Of a stretch of 64,000 nt of DNA, positions 11,394 to 32,978 are shown in pieces (the first letter of the stretch is position 1; each line of letters opens with the position of its first letter). A program made the position numbers and the translations under genes. This DNA comes from Mesorhizobium sp. AR02 (GTDB lineage: Bacteria; Pseudomonadota; Alphaproteobacteria; Rhizobiales; Rhizobiaceae), in the NCBI RefSeq assembly GCF_024746835.1, contig NZ_CP080531.1, positions 2,542,001-2,606,000 of the forward strand, in the 5' to 3' direction. The notes beneath the pieces are model-generated. The model ran no database searches, was not told the DNA's origin, and saw only the letters and a program-made list of their open reading frames with translations.

Positions 11394-11399
11394 ACGCCG

Positions 11400-12793: not shown

Positions 12794-12807
12794 ACGCGTT
12801 AACTACA
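12786..12807. promoter_or_regulatory. Probable HpaR operator (22-bp palindrome)
   Basis: The half sites TGTAATTAACG and CGTTAACTACA form a 22-bp inverted repeat with a single mismatched pair and the perfect core TTAACGCGTTAA. It overlaps the -10 of the hpaF promoter in the hpaR-hpaF divergent gap, the classical layout of a MarR repressor site. Confidence 0.65.
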
Positions 12808-12837
12808 ACAAGGCAATGATCCAGGGAACGAAACGCG

Positions 12838-13224: not shown

Positions 13225-13236
13225 CGGAAAGCTGAC

Positions 13237-14754: not shown

Positions 14755-14767
14755 CGGAGGAAATCAG

Positions 14768-15748: not shown

Positions 15749-15770
15749 CAGCCCCTATGAGGAGACGCGG

Positions 15771-16646
15771 ATGACTGGATATGGGCGGCTCGCCACCTTC
15801 ACGGCCGGCGGCAAGGCGCGCTATGGCTCGGTTACCGACAGGGGCGTCGTCGACCTGTCTGCCCGCCACAGCCAGTGGCCGACATTGCGCGAGGTGATCG
15901 AAGCCGGCGCCTTGCGGCGGCTGACGGAAGAGGCCGAGGCCTTTGCCGCCGATTTCCCGCTCCACGCCATCGCCTATGACATCCCGATCCCGTCGCCGGA
16001 AAAGATCATCTGCGTCGGCGTCAACTATCCGGACCGCAACGAGGAGTACAAGGACGGCCAGGCAGCGCCTGCCAACCCGTCGCTGTTCATCCGCTTTCCC
16101 CGTTCCTTCGTCGGCCATGGTGCTGCACTGGTGCGGCCGCCGGAATCACCACAACTCGACTATGAGGGCGAAATCGTCATCGTCATCGGCAAAGGCGGGC
16201 GGCGCATCGCCGAGGCGGATGCGCTCGGCCACATCGCGGCGCTGTCGCTATGCAATGAAGGCACCATCCGCGACTGGGTGCGGCACGCCAAGTTCAACGT
16301 CACGCAAGGCAAGAATTTCGACCGCACCGGGTCGATCGGCCCATGGCTGGTGCCGTTCACGGATGAGGCGCAGATCGCCGACATTGCGCTCTCCACCCGC
16401 GTCAATGGCGAGATCCGCCAGCAGGAGCGCACCAGCCGGATGATCTTTACCTTCCGCAAGATCATCAACTACATCTCGACCTTCACCACGCTGGTGCCTG
16501 GCGATATCATCGTCACCGGCACGCCGACCGGTGCCGGCGCCCGCTTCGATCCGCCGATCTGGCTGAAGCCCGGCGATGTGATCGAGGTCGAGGCCGACGG
16601 CATCGGCGTGCTCCGAAACGGCGTGGTCGATGAGGCAACAGCATGA
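15771..16646 (+). CDS. hpaG: Fumarylacetoacetate hydrolase-family decarboxylase/isomerase, HpaG-like (single domain)
   Basis: A 291-residue FAH-fold protein with ICVGVNYPDRNEEYKDG, the metal-binding acidic pattern LDYEGEIVIVIGK, and NEGTIRDWVRHAKFNVTQGK. In the hpa route this family decarboxylates OPET and isomerises HHDD. E. coli HpaG is a duplicated two-domain protein of about 430 residues; here only one catalytic unit plus the N-terminal cap is present, so one of the two activities may be lost or shared. It starts 22 bases after hpaD and overlaps hpaH by 4 bases. Confidence 0.85.
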   Translation: MTGYGRLATFTAGGKARYGSVTDRGVVDLSARHSQWPTLREVIEAGALRRLTEEAEAFAADFPLHAIAYDIPIPSPEKIICVGVNYPDRNEEYKDGQAAPANPSLFIRFPRSFVGHGAALVRPPESPQLDYEGEIVIVIGKGGRRIAEADALGHIAALSLCNEGTIRDWVRHAKFNVTQGKNFDRTGSIGPWLVPFTDEAQIADIALSTRVNGEIRQQERTSRMIFTFRKIINYISTFTTLVPGDIIVTGTPTGAGARFDPPIWLKPGDVIEVEADGIGVLRNGVVDEATA

Positions 16647-17449
16647 CCCCGGAGCAAGTGGAAGACGCGGCCAACCGGCTGTTCGAAGCCGAGCGGTCAC
16701 GCCGCCAGATCCGGCTGCTCAGCCTCGATTTTCCCGAGGCGACGATGGAGGACGCCTATCGCGTGCAGGCCGCGCTGGTGACGCGCAAGATCGATTCCGG
16801 GCTGAAGCCAAAGGGCTGGAAGATCGGGCTGACCTCCAAGGCGATGCAGTATGCGCTGGCCATCGATACGCCGGATTCGGGCGTGCTGTTCGACGACATG
16901 TTCTTCAACGACGGCGCGACGGTTCCGGCCGGCCGCTTCATCCAGCCGCGCGTCGAGGCCGAGATCGCCTTCGTCATGAAGGCACCGTTGAAGGGTCCCG
17001 GCGTGACCATCTTCGACGTGCTCAACGCCACCGACTACATCACGCCGGCGCTGGAAATCCTCGATACGCGCATCGAGCGCGTCAATGCCGAGACGAAGAA
17101 GGCGCGCACCTTATTCGACACCATCTCCGACAATGCCGCCAATGCCGGCATCGTCATCGGCGGCCGGCCGCAGCGGCCTGATGAAGCCGACATGCGCTGG
17201 ATCGGCGCCATCGTCTCGCGCAATGCCGAGGTCGAGGAGACCGGGCTTGGCGCCGGCGTGCTCAACCATCCGGCCATGGGCATCGCCTGGCTGGCGGACC
17301 GGCTCGCGCGCTATGGCATGTCGATCGCGGCCGGCGAAGTGGTGCTGTCGGGATCGTTCGTGCGTCCGGTCGAGGCACGACCGGGCGACACGATCGTCGC
17401 CGATTTCGGCAGCTCGGGTAAGGTCAGCATCCATTTCGCCAAGAGCTGA
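16643..17449 (+). CDS. hpaH: 2-oxo-hept-3-ene-1,7-dioate hydratase
   Basis: A 268-residue member of the MhpD/HpaH hydratase family (FAH-related fold): QAALVTRKIDSGLKPKGWKI, the metal-binding QPRVEAEIAFVMKAPL segment and GASVLNHP-like GAGVLNHPAMGIAWLADRLA. It hydrates OHED to 4-hydroxy-2-oxoheptane-1,7-dioate, the substrate of the aldolase HpaI. Its ATG overlaps the hpaG stop (ATGA). It is the last hpa gene; no aldolase follows, and the next gene lies on the opposite strand 12 bases away. Confidence 0.92.
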   Translation: MTPEQVEDAANRLFEAERSRRQIRLLSLDFPEATMEDAYRVQAALVTRKIDSGLKPKGWKIGLTSKAMQYALAIDTPDSGVLFDDMFFNDGATVPAGRFIQPRVEAEIAFVMKAPLKGPGVTIFDVLNATDYITPALEILDTRIERVNAETKKARTLFDTISDNAANAGIVIGGRPQRPDEADMRWIGAIVSRNAEVEETGLGAGVLNHPAMGIAWLADRLARYGMSIAAGEVVLSGSFVRPVEARPGDTIVADFGSSGKVSIHFAKS

Positions 17450-17461: not shown

Positions 17462-18481
17462 TCACGCGCCGCGCAGGTAATCCGCCACCACGCTGGCGGC
17501 GATGGTCGAAATGCGCATGCCGGCATCCCTGGTAATGTCGCCCTCGACGCGGCTCTGCACCCAGCCGAGGAAGGCAAAGGCGCGCAGCGCTGAAAACAGC
17601 GGCAAGGCCGCGACGTCCTGCTGCGTCAACTCGCGCTCCTGCCGGTAGCCGTCAAGCAGCGACGCCTCGATCAGCGGATAGATCGCCTCCTCGCGGTTCT
17701 GGTAGAGTGCTACGGCAAGATCGTAGACATGCCAGCCATGGCCGCAATCGTCGAAGTCGATAATCTGGATGCTGTCGCCGTCGAGCAGCACATTCTCGCG
17801 CACCAGATCGGCATGGATCAGGCCGAAATTGCGCGCGCTGCGCTCATGCCGCGACAGTGCCTCGACCGCCTTCCTGTGGGCACGGTGGACCAGGTCGCGA
17901 TTGGCATCGTCGAGAAATGGGCAGGTCTCGAAGCGGCCCCATGTCGGGTTCGGGCCGAAAAAACCGTCGAAATCCCAGGCATGGCGGGCAAAGCCCGGCG
18001 GCGGCGCCCAGCCGGCGGCAGCATTGTGCATGCGCGCGATGGTTTGCCCGACTGCCGCGAAGACCTCCCTTGCCCGTTGCGGCGAATAGCCGAGCGGCAC
18101 GCCGCGCGCACCGACGGCGCGGCCTTCCAGCCAGCTCAGACAATCGACCTGACGCGGCGTGGAAGTGCCTATGCCGACCGGCACGAACAGATCGCCGGCC
18201 TGCGTCGGCACCGGAGACGGCGTGGCGACACCGGCGGATTGCAGAAAGCCCATCCATTGCAGTTCCGAGCGGAGCGCGGCATCGGAGTGATAGCCAAGCC
18301 GATGGATGCGCAGGGCTGCCGGCCGGCCATCGGCCAAGCGGATGCGGAAGACGGCATTTTCGCGGTATTTCAGCAGTTCCGGTTCACAATCGCGGACACC
18401 CCAATGGGCGAGCGCATGCCGGGCAAGCGCGGTGACATCAGCCGCTGTCTCAGGCTCGGATCGCGCGGACACTGCGTTCAC
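17462..18481 (-). CDS. APH-fold small-molecule kinase, hydroxylysine kinase-like
   Basis: A 339-residue protein of the aminoglycoside phosphotransferase/choline kinase fold. The Brenner motif GLIHADLVRENVLL (catalytic Asp) and metal-binding IIDFDDCGHGWHVYDLA are complete. It is close in pattern to homoserine kinase II, YihE and hydroxylysine kinase (AGPHD1/HYKK). The GTG start overlaps the stop of a PLP phospho-lyase-like gene (GTGA). In animals, hydroxylysine kinase and the AGXT2L2 phospho-lyase act in sequence, so I infer that this kinase phosphorylates an amino alcohol (hydroxylysine, ethanolamine or similar) for the adjacent lyase. Substrate identity is inference. Confidence 0.82.
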   Translation of the reverse strand: MNAVSARSEPETAADVTALARHALAHWGVRDCEPELLKYRENAVFRIRLADGRPAALRIHRLGYHSDAALRSELQWMGFLQSAGVATPSPVPTQAGDLFVPVGIGTSTPRQVDCLSWLEGRAVGARGVPLGYSPQRAREVFAAVGQTIARMHNAAAGWAPPPGFARHAWDFDGFFGPNPTWGRFETCPFLDDANRDLVHRAHRKAVEALSRHERSARNFGLIHADLVRENVLLDGDSIQIIDFDDCGHGWHVYDLAVALYQNREEAIYPLIEASLLDGYRQERELTQQDVAALPLFSALRAFAFLGWVQSRVEGDITRDAGMRISTIAASVVADYLRGA

Positions 18482-19800
18482 GCCGCCACTCCGGCGACTT
18501 CACCAAGCACTTCGTCGAGCGTGCCGATCAACAGGTCGGCATTGGCGCGGGAAAACGGCATTGGCGGGCGGATCTTCAGCACATTGCCATGGATGCCGGT
18601 CTTGCCCATCAGCACGCCACGGTCGCGCATAGCGTTGATGACGCGCCCGGCGATGTCGGGCGCCGGCTCGCGCGTCTCGCGGTCGCGGACCAGCTCGGCG
18701 CCGAAGAACAGGCCGGCGCCTCGGACTTCCCCGATGCAGTCATGCCGGTCGGCCAGCGGCCGCAGCAAATCCAGTGCATAGGCGCCGACATCGCGCGCAT
18801 TGGCGACAAGGTTTTCATCTTCCAGGACATCAAGAACCGCACTAGCCACGGCGCAGGAAACCGGATTGCCGCCAAAGGTGTTGAAATAGCGGAAGGCGTT
18901 ACGGAAAGTCGCCAAGATTTCTGTGGTGGTGACGACGGCGGCGACCGGATGGCCATTGCCCATCGGCTTGCCCATGGTGACGATGTCGGGAACGAAGCCG
19001 GCGCGCTGATGGCCCCAGAAATAGCTGCCGGTACGGCCGAAGCCCGGCTGCACTTCGTCGGCGATGACCAGCCCTCCAGCGTCGCGCACGGCCGCCACGG
19101 CGTCGTCGAAGAAGCCGGCGGGCAGCGTCGGAAACCCTTCATTGGCGAGCAGCGGACACAGGATCATGCCGGACAGGCCGATGCCGTCCTTTGCCAGCGA
19201 GGCGATGGCTTCGCGCACGGCGCCGCCGAACGCCTTGCCGTTGGCCATCGCGTCGGGATGGCGATAGCTGTCGGGCGCTGGCACCAGCCTGACATAGGGA
19301 GCGCGGCCGCCGACTGGCGGCATGCGGGTTGAGAGCTGCGAAACCGCCGTGGTGTTGCCGTGATAGGTGGCGTCGGTGGCGATGATGCCCATCTGGCCTG
19401 AAGTCGCCTGCGCCATCCGCAGTGCGATGTCGTTGGCCTCGCTGCCGGTGCAGGTCAGGATGGCAGTCGACAGGCTGGCATCGAAAGTCGCGGTCAGCCG
19501 CTCGACATAATCGAGGATGGCGGTGTGGAGATAGCGCGTGTGGGTGTTGAGCAGGCTTGCCTGCCGGCACAGCGCGTCGACCACATGCGGATGGCAATGG
19601 CCGACATGGGCGACATTGTTGTAGGCGTCGAGATATTTGCGGCCGTCGGCATCGTAGAGCCAGACGCCTTCGCCGCGCACCAGATGCACGGGCTCGTCAT
19701 AGAACAATTGCGATTTCGCGCCGAGCAGGCGGCCACGCCGGCTAATCAGCGCCGCCTCGGCCTGCGTTCCATGCGTCGGACTTTTCTGCGGGTGTGCCAT
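18478..19800 (-). CDS. Class III PLP enzyme, phospho-lyase type (AGXT2L-like)
   Basis: A 440-residue fold-type I class III aminotransferase-family protein. It shows YLDAYNNVAHVGHCHPHVVD and LLNTHTRYLH, the pattern of the AGXT2L1/AGXT2L2 branch that acts as ethanolamine-phosphate or 5-phosphohydroxylysine phospho-lyase rather than transaminase. PLP-site residues: GSEANDIALR, ADEVQPGFGRTG with Asp248, and Lys278 in VTMGKPMGNGHP. It overlaps the downstream kinase gene by 4 bases, which strengthens the phospho-lyase reading: kinase adds phosphate, this enzyme eliminates phosphate and ammonia to leave an aldehyde. A plain aminotransferase role remains possible. Confidence 0.83.
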   Translation of the reverse strand: MAHPQKSPTHGTQAEAALISRRGRLLGAKSQLFYDEPVHLVRGEGVWLYDADGRKYLDAYNNVAHVGHCHPHVVDALCRQASLLNTHTRYLHTAILDYVERLTATFDASLSTAILTCTGSEANDIALRMAQATSGQMGIIATDATYHGNTTAVSQLSTRMPPVGGRAPYVRLVPAPDSYRHPDAMANGKAFGGAVREAIASLAKDGIGLSGMILCPLLANEGFPTLPAGFFDDAVAAVRDAGGLVIADEVQPGFGRTGSYFWGHQRAGFVPDIVTMGKPMGNGHPVAAVVTTTEILATFRNAFRYFNTFGGNPVSCAVASAVLDVLEDENLVANARDVGAYALDLLRPLADRHDCIGEVRGAGLFFGAELVRDRETREPAPDIAGRVINAMRDRGVLMGKTGIHGNVLKIRPPMPFSRANADLLIGTLDEVLGEVAGVAA

Positions 19801-19835
19801 CAGTATATCGAAACTCCGTTGTGTCCGTCGACGTG

Positions 19836-21185
19836 TCAGACCTTCGACAGTCCTGCGCCGATCGCCTCACCGATCTTGGCGACATCGGCGGCGCTGATGA
19901 TCAGCGGGGGTGACAGGATGATGTTGTTGCCGGAGACGCGCAGCATGACGCCGGCTTCGTAGGCAGCCTCCGAAACCACGGCCATAGTCTTCTTGTCGGC
20001 GGGTTTTTTCGTCGCGCGATCCGAGACCAGCTCGATCGCCGCCATCAGGCCCTTGTAACGGACATCGCCAACGATGGCGTGCTTGGCCTTCAGGCCCTCC
20101 AGCACGGCCGCCAGTTCGACACCGCGTGCCGCGGCGTTCTCGTTCAGGCGAAGCCGTTTGGTCTCGGCGAGCGCCGCCAGTCCCGCCGCGCAGCCGACCG
20201 GGTGACCGGAGTAGGTATAGCCATGGCCGATGGCGCCAAAACTGGTCTTGTCGGCCTCGAACACGTCGGCGACCTTGCCACCGATCAGCGTCGCGCCGAG
20301 CGGGAAATAGCCTGAGGTGATCGCCTTGGCGATGGTCATGAAATCCGGCTTCACACCCGTCAGCCTGGAACCGGACCAAGCTCCGGTGCGGCCAAAGCCG
20401 GTGACGACCTCGTCGGCGATCAGCAGGATTTCGTGGCGGTCGCAGATCTCGCGTATCAGCGGCATGAAGCTTTCATGCGGAACGATGACGCCGCCGGCGC
20501 CGAGCACCGGCTCCATGATGAAGGCGGCGATGGTGTCGCCGCCCTGGAAGGCGATTTCATCCTCCAGCGCCTTGGCGCACAGTTTCGCCAGCCGCGCCGG
20601 ATCGGTCTCTTCGAAGGGATTGCGGAAGGTCCAGGGTGCCGGAATGTGGAAGACGCCGGGCAGCAGCGGCTCATAGTTGCGGCGGAAATTGGCGTTGCCG
20701 TTGACCGAGGCACCGCCGAAATGGGTGCCGTGATAGCCTTTCTTGAGCGCCAGGAATTTTGTCCGGTCGCCCTGGCCGCGGATCTTCCAGTATTGCCTGG
20801 CCAGCCGAAGTGCTGTCTCGACCGAATCCGAGCCCCCCGAGGTGAAGAAGGTTCGCACCATGCCTTCCGGCGCGAACCATTCAGCGAGTTCGTAGGCGAG
20901 CTCGATCGACGGTCCGGTCGAGGTGCCGCGGAAGCCGGAATAGTATGGGAGAGCGCCGAGCTGGTCGGCGATCGCTTTCTTGATCGGGTCGCAGCTGTAG
21001 CCGAGATTGACGTTCCACAACCCGCCAACGGCGTCGAGCACGGTGTTGCCGCCAATGTCGGTGACCATGACGCCCTCGCCCTTCATGATCACCTTGGGCG
21101 GGTTGGCCCGCATCTCGGCCGGATGCGCCATCGGATGCCAGATCGGCTTGGCGTTGGTCTCGGTGAGGAAATTGATGTCGCGCAT
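19836..21185 (-). CDS. Class III aminotransferase (omega-amino acid/pyruvate type)
   Basis: A 449-residue PLP enzyme: PIWHPMAHPAEM, GGLWNVNLGYS, the PLP phosphate loop TSGGSDSVETALRLAR, LIADEVVTGFGRTG (Asp258) and Lys287 in MTIAKAITSGYFPLGA. This pattern fits omega-amino acid:pyruvate, taurine or putrescine-type transaminases. The ATG at 21185 is preceded by GGAG at 7 bases; a TTG five codons upstream lacks spacing for this site. It lies in the minus-strand operon between the HAD gene (21-base gap) and the phospho-lyase gene (35-base gap), so it likely deaminates the pathway amine or recycles nitrogen. Confidence 0.9.
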   Translation of the reverse strand: MRDINFLTETNAKPIWHPMAHPAEMRANPPKVIMKGEGVMVTDIGGNTVLDAVGGLWNVNLGYSCDPIKKAIADQLGALPYYSGFRGTSTGPSIELAYELAEWFAPEGMVRTFFTSGGSDSVETALRLARQYWKIRGQGDRTKFLALKKGYHGTHFGGASVNGNANFRRNYEPLLPGVFHIPAPWTFRNPFEETDPARLAKLCAKALEDEIAFQGGDTIAAFIMEPVLGAGGVIVPHESFMPLIREICDRHEILLIADEVVTGFGRTGAWSGSRLTGVKPDFMTIAKAITSGYFPLGATLIGGKVADVFEADKTSFGAIGHGYTYSGHPVGCAAGLAALAETKRLRLNENAAARGVELAAVLEGLKAKHAIVGDVRYKGLMAAIELVSDRATKKPADKKTMAVVSEAAYEAGVMLRVSGNNIILSPPLIISAADVAKIGEAIGAGLSKV

Positions 21186-21206
21186 AACAAGGCTCCGCAA
21201 ATGGTC

Positions 21207-21875
21207 TCAGGCAGCTGGGACGAGGTCGAAATGGGCAAGGGCTTCGGCATAGGAAAGCGCTGGCCGGGCAACGTCGAAATGCACCGTGCGCATGCCGGCG
21301 GCACGGCCGCCATCGACATTGCGCTTCTGGTCGTCGACGAACACGCAGGCATCGGCAGGCAAGCCGAGTGCTTCGGTGACGAAGGCATAGGCGCGCGGGT
21401 CGGGCTTGAGGATGCCGGTGTAGGTGGCGTCGACGATCACGTCGAACAGGCCGAGCAGCGGTAGCCGCCGGCGAAAATCGGCGCCGTAGAACAGGTCGAG
21501 TTCGTTGGACAGGATCGCCAGGCGAAACCCCGCGGCATGGACGGCGCGGATGGCGCGGTCGGCTTCGTGCCGCACCACCTTCTCCGGCTCGGCGCCGCGG
21601 GCGCGCTGGACAAAAGTCTCCATCGCCTGCCAGTCCTCGCCGACAAGGCGGCCGACCTCACTTGTGCGGGTGCGCCAATAGTCGCGTTCACTGATCTCGT
21701 CGGCCTGCATCGAACGCCACAGCGGGTCGCTGTCTGGATCGAACGGCCCACGCCATTGCAGCGTGCCGGACTTCAAGCCGAGCGCCTGTTCGGTCAAGGC
21801 ATGGGTCTCGAACAGCGTCCTTGTGACGACGCCGCCGAAATCGAGAACCAGCGCCTGGGCCACGGGAGCGCTCAC
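21207..21875 (-). CDS. HAD-superfamily hydrolase (subfamily IA)
   Basis: A 222-residue HAD phosphatase-like protein. Motif I is LVLDFGGVVTR (nucleophile Asp; the usual second Asp is replaced by Gly, as in many IA variant 3 members such as YihX), motif II ILSNELD, motif III Lys in LKPDPRAYAF, and motif IV CVFVDDQKRNVDGG. The missing second Asp suggests a weak or non-standard phosphatase, or the epoxide hydrolase/dehalogenase-like branch. The GTG start overlaps the stop of the Tm-1-like gene (GTGA). Its role may be to dephosphorylate an intermediate of the kinase/phospho-lyase pathway; this is inference. Confidence 0.82.
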   Translation of the reverse strand: MSAPVAQALVLDFGGVVTRTLFETHALTEQALGLKSGTLQWRGPFDPDSDPLWRSMQADEISERDYWRTRTSEVGRLVGEDWQAMETFVQRARGAEPEKVVRHEADRAIRAVHAAGFRLAILSNELDLFYGADFRRRLPLLGLFDVIVDATYTGILKPDPRAYAFVTEALGLPADACVFVDDQKRNVDGGRAAGMRTVHFDVARPALSYAEALAHFDLVPAA

Positions 21876-23152
21876 GCGGCCACTCCCTTGGCCGGCATGC
21901 CACGCGGGATGATGCCTTCCTCAACCCAGCGATCGAAGATTTCCAGCGCCTTGCCGACAAAATCGTCGCTGTTGATGTGGGCGTCAATCTCGTGGAACTC
22001 GACGCTGGGGGAAATCGCCTTGCGCATTTCATCCACGAAGGCGGCAAGGGCTTCGGGTTCATAGAGCGGCTCACCCTCTATGTCCCATTCCTGGATGCCC
22101 CGGGACGGCAGGATGAAGGCGGACCGCCCTTTCGATGCGCCGAGCTTGGCGGCGATGGTCCTGGCGACCTCGCGGCGGTCAGCGGCATCGACGGTGATCG
22201 AGGCGATCAGCCTGTTATGGGCGTGAAACGGGCGCTCGGAAAATTTAGCCGGCAAATCCTGCCAGGTTGGCAGGTCGACCATGTCGACCGCGCCGGGGGC
22301 GGCGATCTGCGGAATGCCGCGGGCGCCGGCATTTTCCAGCCGGTCGTTGCCGGAGCTGACGACAGAGCCGGCCAGATGGTTGGTGATCTCCTGCAGGCTG
22401 AAATCGAAGACGGCGCAGAAATGGTCCTGGCCGGCGATCGATTCGAAGGCGCGGCCGCCCATGCCGGTGGTGTGGAAGACGGCGACGTCATAGCCGCGCC
22501 GCTCCAGCGCCGGTTTCAGCGTCTTCATGTAGCGCAGGCAGGAGCTGCCGAGCGAAGTCATGCCGATGGTCGGGCCAATCGCCGGTGTCGAGGCGCGGGC
22601 TTCCAGCACGATCCTCGCCGCGCCGACGACCGCGCCGCAGGCCTGCGACAGAACCAGCTTGCAGATCGAGTTGAGGCCGTAGAGCCCGCCGGCCCACAGG
22701 ATCATCATCAGGTCCGGCGCGACGCGTTCCGGCGGGATGAGGTGCGAATAGGCGATGGTGGAGACGACGAATTTCGGCACCCCCAGCGGCAGGGAAAGCG
22801 CGACGTCGAGCGCCAGATCGGTGCCCATCGAACCGCCGATGGCGATGAAGGCGTCGATCTCGCCGTTCCGGTGCAGCTTCCGCACCAATTGCACGGCGCC
22901 ACCGGCCATCAATGTCATGGCCGTGTTCTCGTCGCCGCTGGCGACGATCTCCTCGATCGTCACGTCGACGGCCCGCGCCACGGCATGCTTGTCGTGATCG
23001 GGGCTGTAGGGCGGATTGCCGAGAACGCTGACATCCATCATCACGGCGCTGCCGCCCGATGCCTCGATGCACGCTTTCATGAACAGCAGTTCGTCGGCCT
23101 TGGTGTCGCCGGTGCCGATAACCAGGATGCGGGGCGCGGTCTGTGCAGACAT
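21872..23152 (-). CDS. Tm-1-like ATP-binding domain protein (UPF0261)
   Basis: A 426-residue protein of the UPF0261/Tm-1 N-terminal family: ILVIGTGDTKADELLFMK at the start, IAIGGSMGTDLALDVA, GPTIGMTSLGSSCLRYMKTL, HTTGMGGRAFE and the conserved PQIAAPGAVDMVD. Family structures show two Rossmann-like lobes with an ATP site; the enzymatic role is unknown, and the plant relative Tm-1 binds a viral replicase. The start at 23152 overlaps the IclR gene stop (TGATG). Its place as second gene after the IclR regulator suggests a role in the same catabolic route. Confidence 0.9.
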   Translation of the reverse strand: MSAQTAPRILVIGTGDTKADELLFMKACIEASGGSAVMMDVSVLGNPPYSPDHDKHAVARAVDVTIEEIVASGDENTAMTLMAGGAVQLVRKLHRNGEIDAFIAIGGSMGTDLALDVALSLPLGVPKFVVSTIAYSHLIPPERVAPDLMMILWAGGLYGLNSICKLVLSQACGAVVGAARIVLEARASTPAIGPTIGMTSLGSSCLRYMKTLKPALERRGYDVAVFHTTGMGGRAFESIAGQDHFCAVFDFSLQEITNHLAGSVVSSGNDRLENAGARGIPQIAAPGAVDMVDLPTWQDLPAKFSERPFHAHNRLIASITVDAADRREVARTIAAKLGASKGRSAFILPSRGIQEWDIEGEPLYEPEALAAFVDEMRKAISPSVEFHEIDAHINSDDFVGKALEIFDRWVEEGIIPRGMPAKGVAA

Positions 23153-23949
23153 CAGGCCTGCCTCCTCAGTGTTTGCAAATTGTCGCCATTGAGGCGCATC
23201 GAAATCTCCCGTGCCGTGGCCATGACCGCAAGCCCTCGTTGAGCGATGTCGGCCGGCGTCGTCCTGGCCTTCGGCGCCGCCACAGCGATGGTGCCGAATG
23301 CAAAGCCGTCCGCCGCCAGGATTGCCGCCGCGACTGATATGACGCCTTCTTCCAGGCCCTGATCGCAGATCGAATAGCCGCGCTCGCGCGCCTCGGCCAT
23401 GGAGCGCGAGATGGCGGTGGGATCGATCAGCGTATGCGCCGTAAAGGCCTCGAGAGGTCCCGCCAGGCATGCCTTGATGGCCTCATCCCGGGCGAAGGAC
23501 AGATAGGCAATGCCCGACGCGGTCGAATGCAGGGGCAGAAGCTGGCCGATGTCGATGTTGACGCGGTTCGCCCAGGTGGGATGCTCGACATGGACGGTGA
23601 CCAGCCTGTCGGTGCCGAATTCCGACAGATGCACGGTCTCGGCCGTGGCGCTTGCCAGATCCCGCACCAGCGGCACGGAGGTCTGCAGGAAGGGAAAGCG
23701 GGCCTCGCGGATACGCGCCAGCCGCGACAGGCCGGCGCCGAGCCGGTAGTGCCGCGTGCCGGCGTCCTGCTCGACGAAGCCATGGCTGGTCAGGGCCACC
23801 AGCAGCCGCCGCGTCGTCGCCTTGTCGAAGCTAGAGCGGCGCGCCAGTTCGGTCAGCCCGAGTTCGGGCTCGGCCACGGTGAACAGCTCCAGAAGTGAAA
23901 TCGCCTTGCCGACCGTACCCACATTTGCCTCCCAGCACTGGCCAATCAT
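23152..23949 (-). CDS. IclR-family transcriptional regulator
   Basis: A 265-residue regulator: an N-terminal winged helix (residues 10-70, GLTELARRSSFDKATTRRLL) and a C-terminal IclR effector domain (TASGIAYLSFARDEAIKACL, GYSICDQGLEEGVISVAAAI). It heads the minus-strand operon and is divergent from the APC permease gene across a 145-base gap that contains the palindrome at 24011-24027, so it probably controls both arms. Effector unknown. Confidence 0.92.
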   Translation of the reverse strand: MIGQCWEANVGTVGKAISLLELFTVAEPELGLTELARRSSFDKATTRRLLVALTSHGFVEQDAGTRHYRLGAGLSRLARIREARFPFLQTSVPLVRDLASATAETVHLSEFGTDRLVTVHVEHPTWANRVNIDIGQLLPLHSTASGIAYLSFARDEAIKACLAGPLEAFTAHTLIDPTAISRSMAEARERGYSICDQGLEEGVISVAAAILAADGFAFGTIAVAAPKARTTPADIAQRGLAVMATAREISMRLNGDNLQTLRRQA

Positions 23950-24010
23950 TTAACGTGTGAATTAACTTGACAGGAAGCCGCTTTGTTTGCAAGTCTATAT
24001 TCAAAATAAG

Positions 24011-24027
24011 GGTTCAAATAATGAACC
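24011..24027. promoter_or_regulatory. Candidate IclR operator (GGTTCA-N5-TGAACC)
   Basis: A perfect 6+6 inverted repeat with a 5-base AT spacer lies in the AT-rich gap between the divergent IclR and APC permease genes, about 68 bases before the permease start. The size and symmetry suit an IclR-type dimer site. A TTGACA box lies at 23967-23972, but no -10 box stands at normal spacing. Confidence 0.5.
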
Positions 24028-24094
24028 GACATCCAGAGCGTATGGGACAGGCCAGTCGGCCAGCGAACCCGGTATTCGCAAACAGGAGGGACCA

Positions 24095-25543
24095 ATGACA
24101 GCAGTTTCGGAACAGGCGCCGGCCAACAGGCTGCGCAAGAACAGTCTTGGCGTCGGCGCCATCGCCTTCATGGTGATTTCGGCGGCAGCCCCGCTCACGG
24201 CGGTCGCCGGCGGCACGCCGCTCGGCATGCTGATGGGCAATGGCGCCGGCTTTGCCGGCACCTATCTGATCGTGACGGTGCTGCTGCTGCTGTTCGCGGT
24301 CGGCTATGTCGCTATGTCGCGGCATGTCGGCAATGCCGGCGCCTTCTATGCCTATGCCGCGCGCGGGCTCGGCGGTCTCGCCGGCGGCGCTACGGCGCTG
24401 ATCGCCATCCTGTCCTACAATGCCATGCAGATCGGCGTCATGGGTCTGCTCGGTGCCGCCACCTCCGGGCTGTTTGCCGGCTGGGGCATCAACCTGCCCT
24501 GGTGGGTGTGGAGCTTCATCGCCATCGCCATCGTCGCCGTGCTCGGTTACCGCCAGGTCGACCTGTCAGCCAAAATCCTGACGGTGCTGGTGCTCTGCGA
24601 ATACGCCGTGGTGCTGATCCTCGATTTGACGATCCTCAAGACCGGCGGCGACAGCGGCCTGTCGGCGGCACCGTTCAGCTGGAGCCAGATTACGTCGGGC
24701 GCGCCGGCGATCGCCATCCTGTTCTGTTTCGCCGCCTTCATCGGCTTCGAGGCGACGACGATCTACGCCGAGGAAGCCCGTGACCCCAAAGTCACCATTC
24801 CGCGCGCCACCTATTTCTCCGTGCTTTTGATCGGCGTCTTCTACATGGTCACCGCATGGCTGATGGCGGTTGGGGCCGGCGTCGACAAATTGCTGCCGGC
24901 GCTGCAGGGCCTGCAGGACCCGACGACCTTCCTGTTCGGCCTCTCCGACCGTTATGCCGGCACGCTGCTGACGCATGCGATGAGCATCCTGTTCGTGTCG
25001 AGCCTGTTTGCCGGCGTGCTGGCGTTCCACAATGCGGTTGCCCGCTACATCTATGTCTCGGGCCGCGAGAAGCTATTGCCGCAGTCGATCGGGGTCACGC
25101 ATTCGGCGCACCAGAGCCCGCATGTCGCCTCGGTGATCCAGAGCGTGCTGGCGGCTGTCGTCGTCGGCCTGTTCGCCGTGCTCGGCCTCGATCCGGTGCT
25201 GGCGCTGTTCTCCTGGCTGACCAATGTCGCAACGCTCGGCGTCATCGTCATGATGGCTGTCGCCTCGCTCGCGGTGGTAATGTACTTCCGTGCCAATCCC
25301 TCGACGCAGGAGAATGCGGTGAAGACCACCATCCTGCCGGGACTGACCTTCATCGCCTTCGTCGTCATCATCTATCTGATCGTCATCAATTTCGGCAGCC
25401 TGTCGGGGGCCGGTGGCTTCCTCGGCGTGTTCCTGCCGGGGATGGTGCTGATCGCGGCGGTGATCGGCCTGCTGCTGGCCGGCGCCTTGAGGAGCCGCGA
25501 CCCTGTCGCCTTCGAAAGCCTCGGCCTGCCGCTGAAGGATTGA
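24095..25543 (+). CDS. APC-superfamily amino acid/amine permease
   Basis: A 482-residue inner-membrane transporter with about 12 helices. The first helices show the APC consensus (LGVGAIAFMVISAAAPLTAV, then GGTPLGMLMGNGAG), followed by FIGFEATTIYAEEARDP, the typical helix 6 to 7 loop. The ATG at 24095 has a strong AGGAGGG 4-5 bases upstream; a longer frame from 23987 would consume the operator region. It is the first gene of the arm with P450 and ALDH and divergent from the IclR operon, so it is the likely uptake step for the amine or amino acid handled here. Confidence 0.92.
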   Translation: MTAVSEQAPANRLRKNSLGVGAIAFMVISAAAPLTAVAGGTPLGMLMGNGAGFAGTYLIVTVLLLLFAVGYVAMSRHVGNAGAFYAYAARGLGGLAGGATALIAILSYNAMQIGVMGLLGAATSGLFAGWGINLPWWVWSFIAIAIVAVLGYRQVDLSAKILTVLVLCEYAVVLILDLTILKTGGDSGLSAAPFSWSQITSGAPAIAILFCFAAFIGFEATTIYAEEARDPKVTIPRATYFSVLLIGVFYMVTAWLMAVGAGVDKLLPALQGLQDPTTFLFGLSDRYAGTLLTHAMSILFVSSLFAGVLAFHNAVARYIYVSGREKLLPQSIGVTHSAHQSPHVASVIQSVLAAVVVGLFAVLGLDPVLALFSWLTNVATLGVIVMMAVASLAVVMYFRANPSTQENAVKTTILPGLTFIAFVVIIYLIVINFGSLSGAGGFLGVFLPGMVLIAAVIGLLLAGALRSRDPVAFESLGLPLKD

Positions 25544-25613
25544 GCGAAACACTGGATTGAGAGAGGGGCGGCGTGCCACGCCGCCCTTCTCACCGTGAAG
25601 GGGAGTGGCGGCT

Positions 25614-26813
25614 TTGAGCTTTGCCGAAAACATCACCGTCGAGGCGCTGGAGGCCGACCCCTATCCAATCTATGCCGAGCTCAGGCGCAGCGCGCCGGTC
25701 GCCTTCGTGCCCTCGGTCAATCTCTGGTTCGTCACCCGCTGGAAGGATGTCGAACTGGTGGCGAAATCGCCCGACACCTTCTCGGCAATCGTCAGAGCGG
25801 GCGTATCGCCCGTAGAGCGGTCCTTCGGCAAGCCGACCATCCTGACCACCGATGGCGAGACGCACAAGCAATTGCGCCAGGGCGTCGACCCGAAATACCG
25901 GCCGCGCACGGTCGCCGCCTATGCCGGCGATCTCGTGCGCTCGATCGCCGAACCCTATCTCGACGCGATCGCCGAGCGCGGTTCGGCCGAGCTGATGGCG
26001 GACTATTTCGAGCCGGTGTCGACGCTCAGCCTGGCGCGTTCGCTCGGCCTTGCCGACATCGACATGCCGACGCTGCGCCGCTGGTTCTATGGGCTCGCCC
26101 AGGGCGCCATCAATTTCGAGAAAGACCCGAAGCGGCAGGAGATCGCCGACGCCATCGGCGCCGAGGTCGGCGCCGCCGTGACGCCGACGCTGGAAAGGCT
26201 CGTCCGCGCACCGGATGATTCCGCGCTGTCGCATATGCTGCATGACGGCATGCCGGAAGGGAAAACGCGTCACATCGACTTCCTGATGCCGACCATCAAG
26301 GTGATCCTGCTTGGCGGCATGCAGGAGCCGGGCCATGGCGCCGGCTCGATCCTTGTCGGTCTGTTGAGGAATCCCGACCAGTTGCGGCAGGTGCTCGACG
26401 ATCCCGCGACCTTCGTGCCCAAGGCCGTCGATGAAGGCCTGCGCTGGGTGGCGCCGATCGGCACGCAGACGCGCGAAACGACCCGCGCGGTCGAGATCGG
26501 TGGCGCGACGATCCCCGCCGGCGCGCCGGTCGCCGCACTTGTCTCTTCCGCCAGCCGCGATGAGAGCCGCTTTGCCGATCCGGACCGCTTCGACATCAAC
26601 CGCGACGAAGGCAACCACGCCGCTTTCGGCTTCGGCCATCACTTCTGTTCCGGCCGCTTTTTTGCGCGCGAGCAGATGTGCCTCGCGGTAAGGCTCTTGC
26701 TTGAACGATTCCCCGATCTCAGCCTGGTGCCCGGCAAGGAGCCGGTGTTCCGTGGCTGGGAGTTCCGGGCGCCAACCACATTGCATGTTAGTTTCGGAGC
26801 CGGTTCCCCATGA
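25614..26813 (+). CDS. Cytochrome P450 with atypical Gln-Glu oxygen-activation pair
   Basis: A soluble bacterial P450 of about 399 residues. Conserved features are ExxR in DEGLRW (residues 274-277) and the heme loop FGFGHHFCSGRFFARE, with Cys345 as thiolate. In the I helix the usual (A/G)Gx(D/E)T reads GGMQEP (residues 234-239), so the proton-delivery Asp/Thr pair is replaced by Gln-Glu. TTG at 25614 is chosen because GGGGAG lies 8 bases upstream; a GTG at 25605 is the alternative. No ferredoxin is adjacent; the nearest reductase in the window is 10 kb away. Its stop overlaps the ALDH start (ATGA), so its product probably feeds that aldehyde dehydrogenase. Confidence 0.92.
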   Translation: MSFAENITVEALEADPYPIYAELRRSAPVAFVPSVNLWFVTRWKDVELVAKSPDTFSAIVRAGVSPVERSFGKPTILTTDGETHKQLRQGVDPKYRPRTVAAYAGDLVRSIAEPYLDAIAERGSAELMADYFEPVSTLSLARSLGLADIDMPTLRRWFYGLAQGAINFEKDPKRQEIADAIGAEVGAAVTPTLERLVRAPDDSALSHMLHDGMPEGKTRHIDFLMPTIKVILLGGMQEPGHGAGSILVGLLRNPDQLRQVLDDPATFVPKAVDEGLRWVAPIGTQTRETTRAVEIGGATIPAGAPVAALVSSASRDESRFADPDRFDINRDEGNHAAFGFGHHFCSGRFFAREQMCLAVRLLLERFPDLSLVPGKEPVFRGWEFRAPTTLHVSFGAGSP

Positions 26814-28297
26814 TCAGTCAAAATGCCATCGACACGCTGCGCAAGGCGGAGATCGGCGCGCGCGGCCTGTTCATCGATGGCGAACAGTCAGCGGGAATAA
26901 CCGGCGCGACGCTGCCGGTCATTTCGCCGATCGACGGCCGCGCCTTTGCCAGCATTGCCGACGGCAATGGCGCCGATGTCGACCACGCGGTGAAATCGGC
27001 ACGCAAGGCGTTCGAAAAGGGTTCCTGGTCGCGCGCGGCACCCGCCTTTCGCAAGAAGGTGCTGACCAAGCTCGCCGAACTGGTCGAACAGCATGTCGAC
27101 GAACTGGCGGTGCTCGGCGTGCGCGACAATGGCACCGAGATCGGCATGGCTTACAAGGCCGAGCCGCTGTCGGCGGCCGGCACCATCCGCTACTACGCCG
27201 AGGCGATCGACAAGGTCTATGGCGAGATCGCGCCGACGGCCGAAAACGTGCTGGGGCTGATCCACAAGGAGCCGCTCGGCGTCGTCGGCGTCATCGTGCC
27301 GTGGAATTTCCCGCTGATGATCGGCGCCTGGAAAATCGCGCCGGCACTGGCCGCCGGCAATTGCGTGGTGGTCAAGCCGCCGGAGATCGCCTCGCTGACG
27401 CTGCTGCGGCTGGCGGAGCTGGCCACTGAGGCCGGCCTGCCCGCCGGCGTGCTCAACGTCGTCACGGGCCGCGGCTCCGTCACCGGCGAGGCGCTCGGCC
27501 TGCATATGGATGTCGACGCCATCGCCTTCACCGGTTCGGGACCGGTCGGCCGGCGGCTGCTCGACTATTCCGCCCGCTCCAATCTGAAGCGCGTCTTCCT
27601 CGAACTCGGCGGCAAGTCGCCCAACATCGTCTTTGCCGATGCGCCGGACCTGAAGCAGGCCGCGATCGTTTCCGCCAACGGCATCTTCCGCAATTCCGGC
27701 CAGGTCTGCGTCGCCGGCTCGCGCCTGCTCGTCCAGACGTCGGTCTATGACCGCTTCATGGAGGAGCTTGTCTCGGCGACCACGCGGCTCAAGGTCGGCG
27801 ATCCGCTGGATCTCACCAGCGATGTCGGCGCGGTATCGAGCGCGGAACAGCTGGACAAGAATCTCGGCTTCGTCGCCAAGGCCACCGAACAAGGCGCAAG
27901 GCTGGTCACCGGTGGCGACCGGATCCTGGCCGAGACCGGCGGCAGCTACATGGCGCCGACGATCTTCGAGAATGTCACGCAGGACATGCAGCTGGCCCGC
28001 GAGGAGGTGTTTGGGCCGGTGCTGGGCGTCATGCGCTTCGACACCGAGGAGGACGCGGTGCGGCTTGCCAATTCGACCGTCTACGGGCTCGCCTCGGCGG
28101 TGTGGACATCAAACCTCTCCACCGCGCACCGCATGGTGCGCGCCATCAATGCCGGCGTCGTCCACGTCAACACCTATGGCGGCGCCGACATCACCGTGCC
28201 GCTCGGCGGCGTCAAGCAGTCCGGCTTCGGCCGCGACAAGTCGCTGCACGCGCTTGAGAAATATCTCGAGCTGAAAACCGCCTGGATCGCGCTTTGA
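26810..28297 (+). CDS. NAD(P)-dependent aldehyde dehydrogenase
   Basis: A 495-residue classic ALDH: GVIVPWNFPLMIGAWKIAPA, the FTGSGPVGRRLL cofactor loop, the general base in LELGGKSPNIV and the nucleophile Cys in NSGQVCVAGSRLLV. All catalytic residues are present. The gene is coupled to the P450 by a 4-base overlap and is last in the permease-P450-ALDH operon. It would oxidise an aldehyde made either by the P450 (for example by oxidative dealkylation) or by the phospho-lyase of the divergent operon. Exact substrate unknown. Confidence 0.92.
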   Translation: MISQNAIDTLRKAEIGARGLFIDGEQSAGITGATLPVISPIDGRAFASIADGNGADVDHAVKSARKAFEKGSWSRAAPAFRKKVLTKLAELVEQHVDELAVLGVRDNGTEIGMAYKAEPLSAAGTIRYYAEAIDKVYGEIAPTAENVLGLIHKEPLGVVGVIVPWNFPLMIGAWKIAPALAAGNCVVVKPPEIASLTLLRLAELATEAGLPAGVLNVVTGRGSVTGEALGLHMDVDAIAFTGSGPVGRRLLDYSARSNLKRVFLELGGKSPNIVFADAPDLKQAAIVSANGIFRNSGQVCVAGSRLLVQTSVYDRFMEELVSATTRLKVGDPLDLTSDVGAVSSAEQLDKNLGFVAKATEQGARLVTGGDRILAETGGSYMAPTIFENVTQDMQLAREEVFGPVLGVMRFDTEEDAVRLANSTVYGLASAVWTSNLSTAHRMVRAINAGVVHVNTYGGADITVPLGGVKQSGFGRDKSLHALEKYLELKTAWIAL

Positions 28298-28552
28298 GGA
28301 CCCATGGCGATATCGGGCTCCCGCCGAATCTGATCCTCCCATCCAAGGTGTACAGGATCGCACCGCGGCCCACCGCTGGTGGGTCCGACGCCGTCTTGTG
28401 CTCCATGTCTTGAAATTTTTGAGAGAATATTCCTGGCATCGGCAGCAAAGGCGAAACACGTTCTTTGATAAAATCGATAGAATTTCTGACGATGTGACCA
28501 AGCCTAGGCAATCCGCCTTGCTGCTATGACTTCACAACCGCAGAGATCAATC
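28298..28552. other. 255-base intergenic leader before metQ, no gene seen
   Basis: This gap contains a hairpin at 28367-28385 (CCCACC-GCT-GGTGGG with two further pairs, no T-run) that may terminate the upstream ALDH transcript. It also holds AT-rich segments near 28410-28490 that could be a promoter, but no well-spaced box pair. I looked for a SAM-II type riboswitch in front of this methionine-type importer and did not find its conserved core. Confidence 0.4.
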
Positions 28553-29398
28553 ATGTCGAACACTTTACCATCTTCCCTTTGGTCAACCATCAACCGGCGC
28601 GGCGGCCTTGCTCTGCTGTTCGCATCGGCCGTCGCGGTCGGCAGCCTGATGGCGCCGCATGCGTCCTTCGCCGAGGACAAGAAGGCGATCAAGGTCGGCA
28701 TCATCAGCGGCGAGGACGAGGATGTCTGGCGTGTCGTGGTCGCTCAAGCCGCCGAAAAGGGCCTGGCTGTCGAGACTGTGGTGTTCAACGACTACACCCA
28801 GCCCAACGAGGCGCTGGAGCGCGGCGAGATCGACGCCAACGCCTTCCAGCATCAGCCCTATCTCGACAACCAGATCAAGACTCAAGGGTATCACATCGTG
28901 CGCGTCGGCTATACCGGCGTCTGGCCGATCGGCCTCTACTCCAAGAAGTACAAAGCGGTCGCCGACCTGCCCCAGGGCGCGGTCATCGGCGTGCCGAACG
29001 ACCCCTCCAATGAAGGCCGGGCGCTGCGCGTGCTGCAGAATGAGGGCGTGATCAAGCTGAAAGACGGCACCGGCATTCTGGCCACCACCGCCGACATCGC
29101 CGAGAACCCCAAGAAGGTCGAGATCAAGGAGCTTGACGCCGGCATCGTCGGCCGCTCGGTCGAGGATCTCGACGCCGCCGTGGTCAACACCGACTGGGCG
29201 CTGAAAAGCGGCCTGACGCCGGACAACCGCATCGCGCAGGAGCCGATCGCCGACAACCCGTACCGCAACTTCATCGCCGTGAAGGTCGGCAATGAGAACG
29301 AGGCCTGGGTGAAGACGCTGGTGGCTTCCTACCAGAACGATGCGGTGAAAGCCGAGTTCGACAAGGTCTACAAGGGCACCGGCCTCAGCGCCTATTGA
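28553..29398 (+). CDS. metQ: Methionine-type ABC importer substrate-binding protein (MetQ/NlpA family)
   Basis: A 281-residue family 9 binding protein: KVGIISGEDEDVWRVV, the binding-site run GEIDANAFQHQPYLDNQ, VGYTGVWPIGLYSKKYK and GVPNDPSNEGRALRVLQ. Residues 1-40 are a Sec signal peptide ending ASFAED. No lipobox cysteine is present, so the protein is probably soluble in the periplasm, unlike the lipoprotein MetQ of E. coli. I use ATG 28553; ATG 28526 would add nine residues. It is followed by metN and metI. Members bind methionine or other amino acids; L-methionine is the default reading. Confidence 0.9.
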   Translation: MSNTLPSSLWSTINRRGGLALLFASAVAVGSLMAPHASFAEDKKAIKVGIISGEDEDVWRVVVAQAAEKGLAVETVVFNDYTQPNEALERGEIDANAFQHQPYLDNQIKTQGYHIVRVGYTGVWPIGLYSKKYKAVADLPQGAVIGVPNDPSNEGRALRVLQNEGVIKLKDGTGILATTADIAENPKKVEIKELDAGIVGRSVEDLDAAVVNTDWALKSGLTPDNRIAQEPIADNPYRNFIAVKVGNENEAWVKTLVASYQNDAVKAEFDKVYKGTGLSAY

Positions 29399-29488
29399 TC
29401 CGCCGGACGTCCAGTTCGAGAGCAAGTGCGGTCCGCGCCTGAGCGCGGGCCGCAATTGCGTTTTCGGATGGCGAGAACAGGAACACGC

Positions 29489-30586
29489 ATGGACCAGCAT
29501 ATCACGGCATCCGGGGAGATCGCCGATCCGACCCACGCCCGACCCGAAGCGTCGCAGGATGTGGTGCGCCTTGTCGAGCTGAAACGCCGCTTTGGTGCCA
29601 CGCCGGCGATCGACGGCATCTCGCTGACGGTGCGCAAGGGCGAGATTCTCGGCATTATCGGCCGCAGCGGCGCCGGCAAATCGACGCTGATCCGCTGCCT
29701 GAACGGGCTGGAGCGACCGGATTCCGGCGAAGTGTTCATCGAAGGCCGCGAGATCAGCCGGCTCGGCGAGCGCGACCTGCAGCCGCTGCGGCGGCGCATC
29801 GGCATGATCTTCCAGCATTTCAACCTGCTGTCGGCCAAGACCGTCGAGGACAATGTCGCGCTGCCTCTGAAGATCGAGGGCTGTCCGAAGGCCGAGCGGC
29901 TGAAGCGGGCGGCTGAACTGCTCGACCTCGTCGGCCTGTCGGAGAAAGCCAAGGCCTATCCGGCATCGTTGTCGGGCGGCCAGAAGCAGCGCGTCGGCAT
30001 CGCCCGCGCGCTGGCCGCGCGACCGGCGCTGCTTCTGTCGGACGAAGCGACATCGGCGCTCGACCCGGAGACGACGCGCTCCATTCTTGCCTTGCTGAAA
30101 GACATCAACCGGCAGCTTGGCCTGACCATCTTGCTGATCACCCATGAGATGGAAGTGATCCGCTCGATCGCCGACCGCGTGGCGGTGATCGATGCCGGGC
30201 GCATCGTCGAGCAAGGGCCGGTCTGGTCGGTGTTCGCCGACCCGCGGTCGGAGATCACAAGAAGCCTGCTTGGCGCCATTCGACCGCAGCTGCCGGCCGA
30301 ACTGTCAGCAAGGCTGCAGCCGGCTTCCGGCGCCGAGACGATCCTGCGCATCGATGTCGCCGGCGAAGCCGCAAGCGGCCCGCTGCTGTCCGACCTTGCC
30401 ACGGCTGTTCCGGGCGCCTTCCGTCTCGTCCATGGCGGCATCGACCATATCCAGCAGCAGCCCGTCGGCACGCTGTTCCTGTCCGTCCCCGGCAGCGATG
30501 CAAGTCATCTCGCCGAAGTGATCACATTCCTGAAGGCCCGCCAGGCGCGGGTGGAGGTGCTTGGCCATGTCGCCAATCCTGTTTGA
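29489..30586 (+). CDS. metN: Methionine-type ABC importer ATP-binding protein (MetN)
   Basis: A 365-residue ATPase: Walker A GRSGAGKST, Q-loop IFQHFNLLSAKTV, signature LSGGQKQR, Walker B LLLSDEATSALDP and H-loop THEME. The C-terminal 90 residues (TILRIDVAGE to the end) form the NIL domain, which in MetN binds methionine and gives trans-inhibition. The ATG at 29489 follows AGGAA; an upstream frame from 29426 lacks a site. It overlaps metI by 20 bases. Confidence 0.94.
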   Translation: MDQHITASGEIADPTHARPEASQDVVRLVELKRRFGATPAIDGISLTVRKGEILGIIGRSGAGKSTLIRCLNGLERPDSGEVFIEGREISRLGERDLQPLRRRIGMIFQHFNLLSAKTVEDNVALPLKIEGCPKAERLKRAAELLDLVGLSEKAKAYPASLSGGQKQRVGIARALAARPALLLSDEATSALDPETTRSILALLKDINRQLGLTILLITHEMEVIRSIADRVAVIDAGRIVEQGPVWSVFADPRSEITRSLLGAIRPQLPAELSARLQPASGAETILRIDVAGEAASGPLLSDLATAVPGAFRLVHGGIDHIQQQPVGTLFLSVPGSDASHLAEVITFLKARQARVEVLGHVANPV

Positions 30587-32922: not shown

Positions 32923-32978
32923 GCCTTGCGCCGATCACGGCGGATCGAACGATCCGCGCCGTCGCGACCGTTTCTGTG

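Follow-up and report, generated by a model that had tools for sequence, protein, structure and literature searches.

The catabolism of amines through homoprotocatechuate is of an already known kind, and in Pseudomonas aeruginosa PAO aromatic biogenic amines are degraded by means of a tyramine dehydrogenase and an activity referred to as "octopamine hydrolyase". Other bacteria phosphorylate phenols: in the Hpe pathway, according to PMC9618137, the phenol receives a phosphate from a kinase and loses it later to a phosphatase that has NagD as its closest characterised homologue, and PMC13101465 cites MarK (2025) as the single-component kinase starting acetovanillone catabolism in Novosphingobium aromaticivorans. 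Here, a locus of nine genes was analysed, located at positions 17462-28297 of a stretch of 64,000 nucleotides from Mesorhizobium sp. AR02 (contig NZ_CP080531.1, positions 2,542,001 to 2,606,000; the whole stretch is hereafter called the window). This locus is likely to encode, under the control of IclR, the upper part of a pathway for phenolic phenethylamines, the lower part being provided by the adjacent hpa genes, and it is highly probable that aromatic phenolic amines feed the latter. No description of this gene set was found in open-licence papers. The likelihoods given below for the individual mechanism steps are judgements and were not computed.

The nine genes form two divergent arms separated by an intergenic region of 145 bp (23950-24094). 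The arm on the minus strand encodes an IclR-family regulator (23152-23949; Pfam IclR_C and HTH_IclR, the nearest NCBIfam model being PcaR/PcaU/PobR, under its cut-off), a UPF0261 (Tm-1-like) protein of the NF002676 subfamily (21872-23155; 638 bits versus a cut-off of 556), a HAD-IA hydrolase (21207-21875; Pfam Hydrolase), the class-III omega-transaminase AT1 (19836-21182; PRK07481, 729 bits versus a cut-off of 575), the phospho-lyase-type class-III pyridoxal-phosphate (PLP) enzyme AT2 (18478-19800), and an APH-type small-molecule kinase (17462-18481; Pfam APH, 94 bits). The arm on the plus strand encodes an APC-superfamily permease (24095-25543; Pfam AA_permease_2), a CYP255A/GcoA-like P450 (25605-26813), and a PuuC-like aldehyde dehydrogenase (ALDH; 26810-28297; Pfam Aldedh; PuuC model 566 bits, below the cut-off of 850). 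The nine open reading frames, their order and the families named in a preliminary description of this DNA are all borne out by the frame positions and by the Pfam and NCBIfam matches. Its picture of two divergent operons with stop-start overlaps holds for four junctions (IclR/UPF0261, UPF0261/HAD, AT2/kinase, and P450/ALDH, 4 bp each), the remaining ones being gaps of 24 bp (HAD/AT1, with the AT1 start at 21182), 35 bp (AT1/AT2), and 61 bp (APC/P450). Two of the gene starts have to be corrected, that of UPF0261 from 23470 to near 23155 and that of APC, probably, to 24095. A scan with Rfam gave zero matches.

The boundary placed at 17462 in that description misses the cluster that is central for the interpretation, i.e., the hpa genes at 8887-17449, the last of which directly adjoins the kinase gene. 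They are arranged in the order hpaA|hpaBC, hpaR|hpaF-E-D-G-H and include, on the minus strand, an hpaA-like regulator (8887-9756; TIGR02297, 137 bits, cut-off 275) and hpaR (12226-12717; TIGR02337), and, on the plus strand, hpaB for the oxygenase of 4-hydroxyphenylacetate 3-monooxygenase (9807-11393; TIGR02310, 772 bits, cut-off 885), an hpaC-like flavin reductase gene (11400-11909; RutF and HpaC models), an hpaF-like isomerase gene (12838-13224; PRK15031, 95 bits, cut-off 215), hpaE (13237-14754; TIGR02299, 773 bits), hpaD for homoprotocatechuate 2,3-dioxygenase (14804-15748; TIGR02295), a gene for an HpaG-like protein of the fumarylacetoacetate-hydrolase family (15771-16646; HpaG models), and the hydratase gene hpaH (16643-17449; TIGR02312). 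HpaD, HpaE, HpaH, and HpaR exceed the curated cut-offs of their models; HpaA, HpaB, HpaC, HpaF, and HpaG remain below theirs.

In order to assess the conservation of this arrangement, the UPF0261 gene was used as bait in a named genome collection; 151 places were confirmed and the best 80 were kept, with flanks of up to 10 kb. UPF0261 is thus present in 80/80 loci by construction, and the three loci of the source genome of the window (L001-L003) are excluded from the counts. Any other gene was scored as present at identity floors of 30-55% with 40% or more of the query covered, weaker homologues being scored as absent. Within 10 kb of the UPF0261 gene, hpaE was found in 67 of the 80 loci and hpaD in 66, while, by simple arithmetic, a stretch of this size would include a randomly placed gene of a 7-Mb genome about 0.3% of the time. 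The hpa genes may be inverted after the kinase gene, co-directional after it, placed directly after AT1, or located on both flanks, and the linkage extends to another order of the class (L084 and L086). A separate set of 299 genomes from the phylum was also examined: NF002676 was above its cut-off in 12, HpaD above its own in 18, and both in 10, lying within 10 kb of each other in all ten (Fisher p 2e-12, a value that ignores kinship, eight of the ten genomes belonging to one genus). Two genomes have NF002676 but not HpaD, namely G231 and G235, and in the latter hpaR- and hpaF-like genes are still neighbours. Conversely, hpa genes exist without the amine module: four of the eight genomes with HpaD and without NF002676 were examined (L106-L109), and no match to AT1, UPF0261, or the decarboxylase described below was found within 20 kb.

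The aromatic nature of the substrates is also suggested by a gene that is absent from the locus itself. In L084 and L086, a PLP decarboxylase gene is embedded among the hpa genes, and the top solved relatives of its product are DOPA, aromatic-L-amino-acid, and tyrosine decarboxylases (7xin, E 5e-104). A homologue of it occurs in 17/80 loci when any match is counted and in 16/80 at 40% of its length. On the plasmid pbSHIWSC3 of Shinella sp. WSC3-e, the genes for IclR, APC, ALDH, decarboxylase, UPF0261, HAD, AT1, AT2, and kinase stand together, and genes for alanine racemase and D-amino acid dehydrogenase lie near the IclR end, which would suit an alanine-forming transaminase.

These data bear on a different explanation, in which the kinase and AT2 form an aldehyde from aliphatic amino alcohols or amines (ethanolamine, hydroxylysine, 1-aminopropan-2-ol), ALDH oxidises it, and the hpa genes are chance neighbours. 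AT2 and the kinase do resemble the two halves of the PRK06148/PRK06149 fusions, AT2 resembles ethanolamine-phosphate phospho-lyases, and ALDH is PuuC-like; however, the linkage to hpa in 67/80 loci and in several gene orders, the aromatic decarboxylase homologue, the GcoA-like P450, and the solution of a UPF0261 relative with a phenolic ligand make this explanation very unlikely. The substrates named in the preliminary description (hydroxylysine, lysine, ethanolamine phosphate, and choline-like amines) are not supported, phenolic aromatic amines being indicated instead, and hydroxylysine, lysine, ethanolamine, and choline-like compounds were rejected as the preferred substrates on the basis of the hpa linkage, the decarboxylase, and the P450. 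The chemistry proposed there, in which an amine would be taken up and phosphorylated, the phosphate eliminated, and the resulting aldehyde oxidised, is supported as likely.

The analysis of the 80 loci revealed that HAD is present in 79, AT1 in 78, IclR in 76, ALDH in 74, APC in 73, the kinase in 62, AT2 in 61, and the P450 in 24. Six genes (IclR, UPF0261, HAD, AT1, APC, and ALDH) occur jointly in 71/80 loci and form a core conserved across rhizobia; this unit is therefore more than the outcome of chance. The co-occurrence of all nine genes, which had been put forward as a check, is limited to 14/80 loci. The kinase and AT2 behave as a paired module (both in 61 loci, the kinase alone in one, AT2 alone in none), and the P450 gene, when present, lies between those for APC and ALDH in 22 loci and 3' of ALDH in L041 and L072. 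Hence, the locus is a conserved core plus two optional modules, and the nine genes are not an obligatory unit. It had also been argued that arms occurring independently with different partners would speak against the proposal. This was found in part: the arms are apart or have other partners in the Shinella loci L050, L055, and L059, and a Tct-type transporter replaces APC in L084-L086, yet the palindrome described below and the inferred chemistry persist. Similarly, in genomes G208, G235, and G115, belonging to another order of the class, UPF0261 and ALDH lie beside a Tct-type transporter, hpa genes adjoin, and IclR (33-38% identity) is followed by AT1 (65-66%); G115 also has a gene of the metallo-beta-lactamase fold, AT2 (60%), and a kinase gene (36%) overlapping that of AT2. 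Apart from the exchanged importer and the lack of a HAD match, the set of genes is unchanged there.

As for the amine steps, omega-transaminases are among the nearest solved relatives of AT1, which we consider a rather likely tyramine/dopamine transaminase. AT2 matches the phospholyase 5g4i with 398 bits and the ethanolamine-phosphate phospho-lyase 6tor with 371 bits, the next solved relative scoring 200, and keeps the PLP lysine segment GKPMGNGHP; among class-III enzymes it is nearest to the phospho-lyases, and the elimination of phosphate from a vicinal amino phosphate is predicted. The translation of the kinase gene contains the segments HADL...N and DFD, which we take to be the APH catalytic motifs. 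The known substrates of the AT2 family share the pattern H2N-CH2-CH(OPO3)-R, in which R may be H, CH3, or the chain of hydroxylysine. With an aryl group as R, the pattern describes octopamine phosphate, and cleavage of the latter would give the same aldehyde as is expected from tyramine by the action of AT1. The chances that the kinase and AT2 act on octopamine or noradrenaline appear about even. It might be supposed, alternatively, that only the amines derived from tyrosine and DOPA are degraded, AT1 handling both tyramine and dopamine, and that the kinase and AT2 serve another amino alcohol, sharing with this route only the regulator and ALDH. AT1, ALDH, and hpa persist where the optional kinase and AT2 (61/80) are missing, which favours this idea; nevertheless, the two genes stand last in the same run of genes, with a 4-bp overlap, they also come after AT1 in L086/L094, and octopamine fits the vicinal H2N-CH2-CH(OP)-R pattern. 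We regard such a restriction to tyrosine/DOPA-derived amines as rather improbable.

The best solved match of the P450 is GcoA (CYP255A; E ~1e-94), and the equivalent of its heme-thiolate Cys356 is kept. In the pocket, the positions V241, G245, I292, T296, F75, and F395 are identical, and the differences are F169 to Ala, A295 to Gln, and I81 to Leu; the numbers 75, 81, 292, and 395 are presumably those of GcoA. V241, G245, and T296 are named as pocket residues in PMC6021390, and alanine at position 169 is, according to PMC6628648, the majority residue in CYP255A. The enzyme is thus moderately likely to be an O-demethylase of a 3-methoxy analogue, and the "P450 attack" formerly suggested is best read as a GcoA-like O-demethylation. 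Five proteins of the genome carry the FAD_binding_6 domain, a count made on that domain alone. An FAD/NAD-binding reductase-like protein, encoded at 37034-37870 of the window and unlinked to the locus, is a possible electron donor.

The UPF0261/Tm-1-like family has a plant relative that is a virus-resistance protein. In the Mesorhizobium protein, the N and C domains and the fold were confirmed, and its predicted model (pLDDT 89) matches Tm-1 and 9mpy, i.e., Saro_1862, a UPF0261 domain protein of N. aromaticivorans with bound acetovanillone, about 30% identical to it. Likenesses of the fold beyond its own family were weak single-domain matches and were left unused. Saro_1862 is probably MarK. 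The view that the Tm-1-like family has no enzymatic role looks outdated, since MarK, as cited in PMC13101465, and 9mpy suggest a phenol kinase. The UPF0261-HAD pair would fit, by analogy, the kinase/phosphatase logic of the Hpe pathway, and the odds appear evenly balanced on whether UPF0261 is an ATP-dependent phenol kinase and HAD its phosphatase. According to PMC5028733, coevolution of UPF0261 with a TIM-barrel (TBST) gene is the usual case, which is an association and not a strict criterion; none was present among the scanned proteins of the window, and no genome-wide search was made. Two more UPF0261 genes exist in the genome of the window (L001 and L002; G000:C2:3936958 and 639276), one of them in an open frame of 767 aa. 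Outside the class, L087 harbors at 3821-11487 a P450, a glutamine-synthetase-like gene, a 2Fe-2S ferredoxin, and an ALDH (69%) near UPF0261-HAD, and may represent another type of amine locus built on the same pair.

The regulation of the two arms was approached through a perfect palindrome, GGTTCA-N5-TGAACC (GGTTCAAATAATGAACC; 24011-24027), which is located where the divergent gap is well conserved, both in the Mesorhizobium and in the wider alignments, and which recurs upstream of IclR genes, so that it is a candidate IclR operator. It is exact or has one mismatch upstream of the IclR gene in 60 of the 76 loci with IclR (53 exact, including L027 at its second IclR gene) and has two to four mismatches in the other 16. 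Exact copies number 72 in 104 loci, a set that includes overlapping records and IclR paralogues, and are located at IclR (62), upstream of the UPF0261 operon (three), and upstream of Amidohydro_3 (seven). In six Shinella-type loci, the UPF0261 operon no longer faces IclR; the palindrome is found upstream of that operon in 6/6, with no mismatch in L050, L055, and L110, one in L059 and L075, and two in L048. This therefore supports the common IclR-type control of both arms that had been proposed, with the palindrome as its putative operator. The genome of the window (8.9 Mb) contains two exact copies and, if one mismatch is allowed, 12 sites, versus two for the reversed control; in 61 genomes of the genus, an exact site is present in 36, versus three for the reversed pattern, and 10/30 palindrome loci of the genus lack any query gene. 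The scan of the divergent promoter region revealed no sigma-70-like site; read on the minus strand, the palindrome and the T-rich sequence beside it also score like a terminator. An operator shared between the locus and the hpa genes of the window was not seen: there is one exact match in the window, none with one or two mismatches, and 14 with up to three, versus 18.5 expected.

The second exact copy in the genome is flanked by the gene for an IclR paralogue (55%) on one side and that for an Amidohydro_3 homologue (58%) on the other. The presence of an IclR paralogue at the same palindrome implies that the motif marks an IclR subfamily, the paralogue binding at each site being unproven, and the remote amidohydrolase can thus not be taken as an established target of the IclR of the locus. 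Plants contain hydroxycinnamoyl amides such as feruloyl-tyramine, -octopamine, and -3-methoxytyramine, and it is conceivable, if rather doubtful, that these amides are the carbon source and that an Amidohydro_3 enzyme encoded near ALDH in some rhizobia frees the amine; this would extend the phenolic amine pathway rather than exclude it. An Amidohydro_3 gene is present in 11/80 loci, seven of them with an exact palindrome of its own, and the sole other exact palindrome of the window's genome precedes such a gene; that remote gene, however, comes with a separate IclR paralogue at the same palindrome, CobW-type and periplasmic-binding-protein genes lie after it, and Amidohydro_3 is a broad family that does not give the substrate. 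L161 (7954-12914) and L162 (6272-14168) both contain an IclR paralogue (55-56%), the same palindrome, and an Amidohydro_3 gene (58-59%), L161 also having a CobW-type GTPase and a periplasmic binding protein; they represent an apparent sister amide locus.

On the whole, the following pathway for phenolic phenethylamines can be proposed. The APC permease would import the amine; AT1 would transaminate tyramine or dopamine, while the kinase, acting as a beta-hydroxyl kinase of phenylethanolamines, would phosphorylate the side-chain hydroxyl of octopamine or noradrenaline, from which AT2 would eliminate phosphate and ammonia. Both routes would converge on (di)hydroxyphenylacetaldehyde; ALDH, as an arylacetaldehyde dehydrogenase, would oxidise it to the acid, 4-hydroxyphenylacetate or homoprotocatechuate, on which HpaBC and the hpaD-E-F-G-H enzymes would then act. 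The P450, as an aryl O-demethylase, would act on compounds with a 3-methoxy group (3-methoxytyramine, normetanephrine, or homovanillate), while UPF0261 would phosphorylate the ring hydroxyl, and HAD would remove that phosphate. In the boldest version of this pathway, phosphate would be used twice, UPF0261 capping and HAD uncapping the ring hydroxyl of tyramine/octopamine, and a second kinase priming the side chain for PLP elimination; this remains a tentative idea.

Some observations weigh against this pathway. Both hpaE and hpaD are missing from the flanks in 13/80 loci; six of these end at contig ends (L007, L009, L026, L060, L064, and L074), and seven are full-length (L037, L038, L048, L050, L055, L059, and L075), five of which, all except L037 and L038, contain the aromatic decarboxylase homologue. 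The decarboxylase homologue of the window's genome (63%) is about 3.9 Mb away, with no locus genes within its 20 kb, and no reductase gene adjoining that of the P450, nor a GcoB-type neighbour, was found. Twelve of the 16 loci with a degenerate palindrome are Mesorhizobium loci without kinase and AT2, with three or four mismatches, and the palindrome is also present at IclR paralogues of other loci. UPF0261 and HAD are kept in loci without kinase and AT2 and therefore do not serve the phospho-elimination route alone; HAD has no match in L084-L086, a gene of the metallo-beta-lactamase fold lying beside AT1 in L084 and L086, and L087 joins UPF0261, HAD, and ALDH to the P450 and the glutamine-synthetase-like gene with no hpa match in 20 kb. 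Finally, every substrate and the order of the steps are inferred.

The gene identities, their linkage, the optional modules, and the recurrence of the candidate operator are observed features, and they turn a gene list into a specific pathway that can be tested. A subfamily of UPF0261/Tm-1-like proteins receives a proposed metabolic role, and genes are proposed for a phosphorylation/phospho-elimination route of phenylethanolamine catabolism; if this is true, the octopamine "hydrolyase"-type activity gains genes, and the ring phosphate might be a protecting group against quinone-methide formation and arylacetaldehyde self-condensation. It is also suggested that rhizobia feed on plant aromatic amines, i.e., tyramine, octopamine, 3-methoxytyramine, and perhaps hydroxycinnamoyl amides.

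Other genes of the window flank those discussed. Upstream of hpa, the region 804-8800 encodes an ABC ATPase protein, an FmdA/AmdA formamidase, a Dpp/Gsi-type ABC transporter, an AmiR-like ANTAR protein (7044-7646), and a urea-type binding protein (7643-8800), and looks like an AmiC/AmiR-regulated amide operon. Directly 3' of ALDH, at 28526-31223, there are genes for a MetQ/NlpA lipoprotein, a MetN-like ATPase, and a MetI permease, kept at this place in 20/80 loci, and the minus strand at 31738-36822 encodes a GcvT-like protein and a pair of hydantoinase/caprolactamase-like A and B proteins.

The comparison with P. aeruginosa PAO indicates that the proposed pathway would share with it the convergence of phenethylamines and phenylethanolamines on 4-hydroxyphenylacetaldehyde and then 4-hydroxyphenylacetate; here, however, a transaminase would replace the membrane dehydrogenase, and a kinase and a PLP phospho-lyase are proposed for octopamine. 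The lower part corresponds to the 4-hydroxyphenylacetate pathway, hpaA to hpaH adjoining the locus, with the difference that an amine upper module is added. A kinase together with a class-III PLP phospho-lyase is also known from 6tor, 5g4i, and the hydroxylysine kinase/phospho-lyase pairs, but here the two belong to an aromatic amine operon and an aryl substrate is proposed. With the GcoAB guaiacol O-demethylase, as described in PMC6021390 and PMC6628648, the P450 shares the family, the heme cysteine, most of the compared pocket residues, and Ala169 as the CYP255A majority residue, whereas a GcoB-type three-domain reductase is not adjacent and the P450 gene sits in an amine operon. With the Hpe/Acv acetovanillone pathways and MarK, as described in PMC9618137, PMC13101465, and PMC12167813, the locus would share an ATP-dependent phenol phosphorylation followed by a phosphatase, and UPF0261 has its homologue in 9mpy; in contrast, no biotin-dependent carboxylase is present among the genes annotated here, and the aromatic compound would be an amine or aldehyde rather than a ketone. 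The additions of this locus to known catabolism would thus be the proposed phospho-elimination branch, the O-demethylase, and the Tm-1-like/HAD pair.

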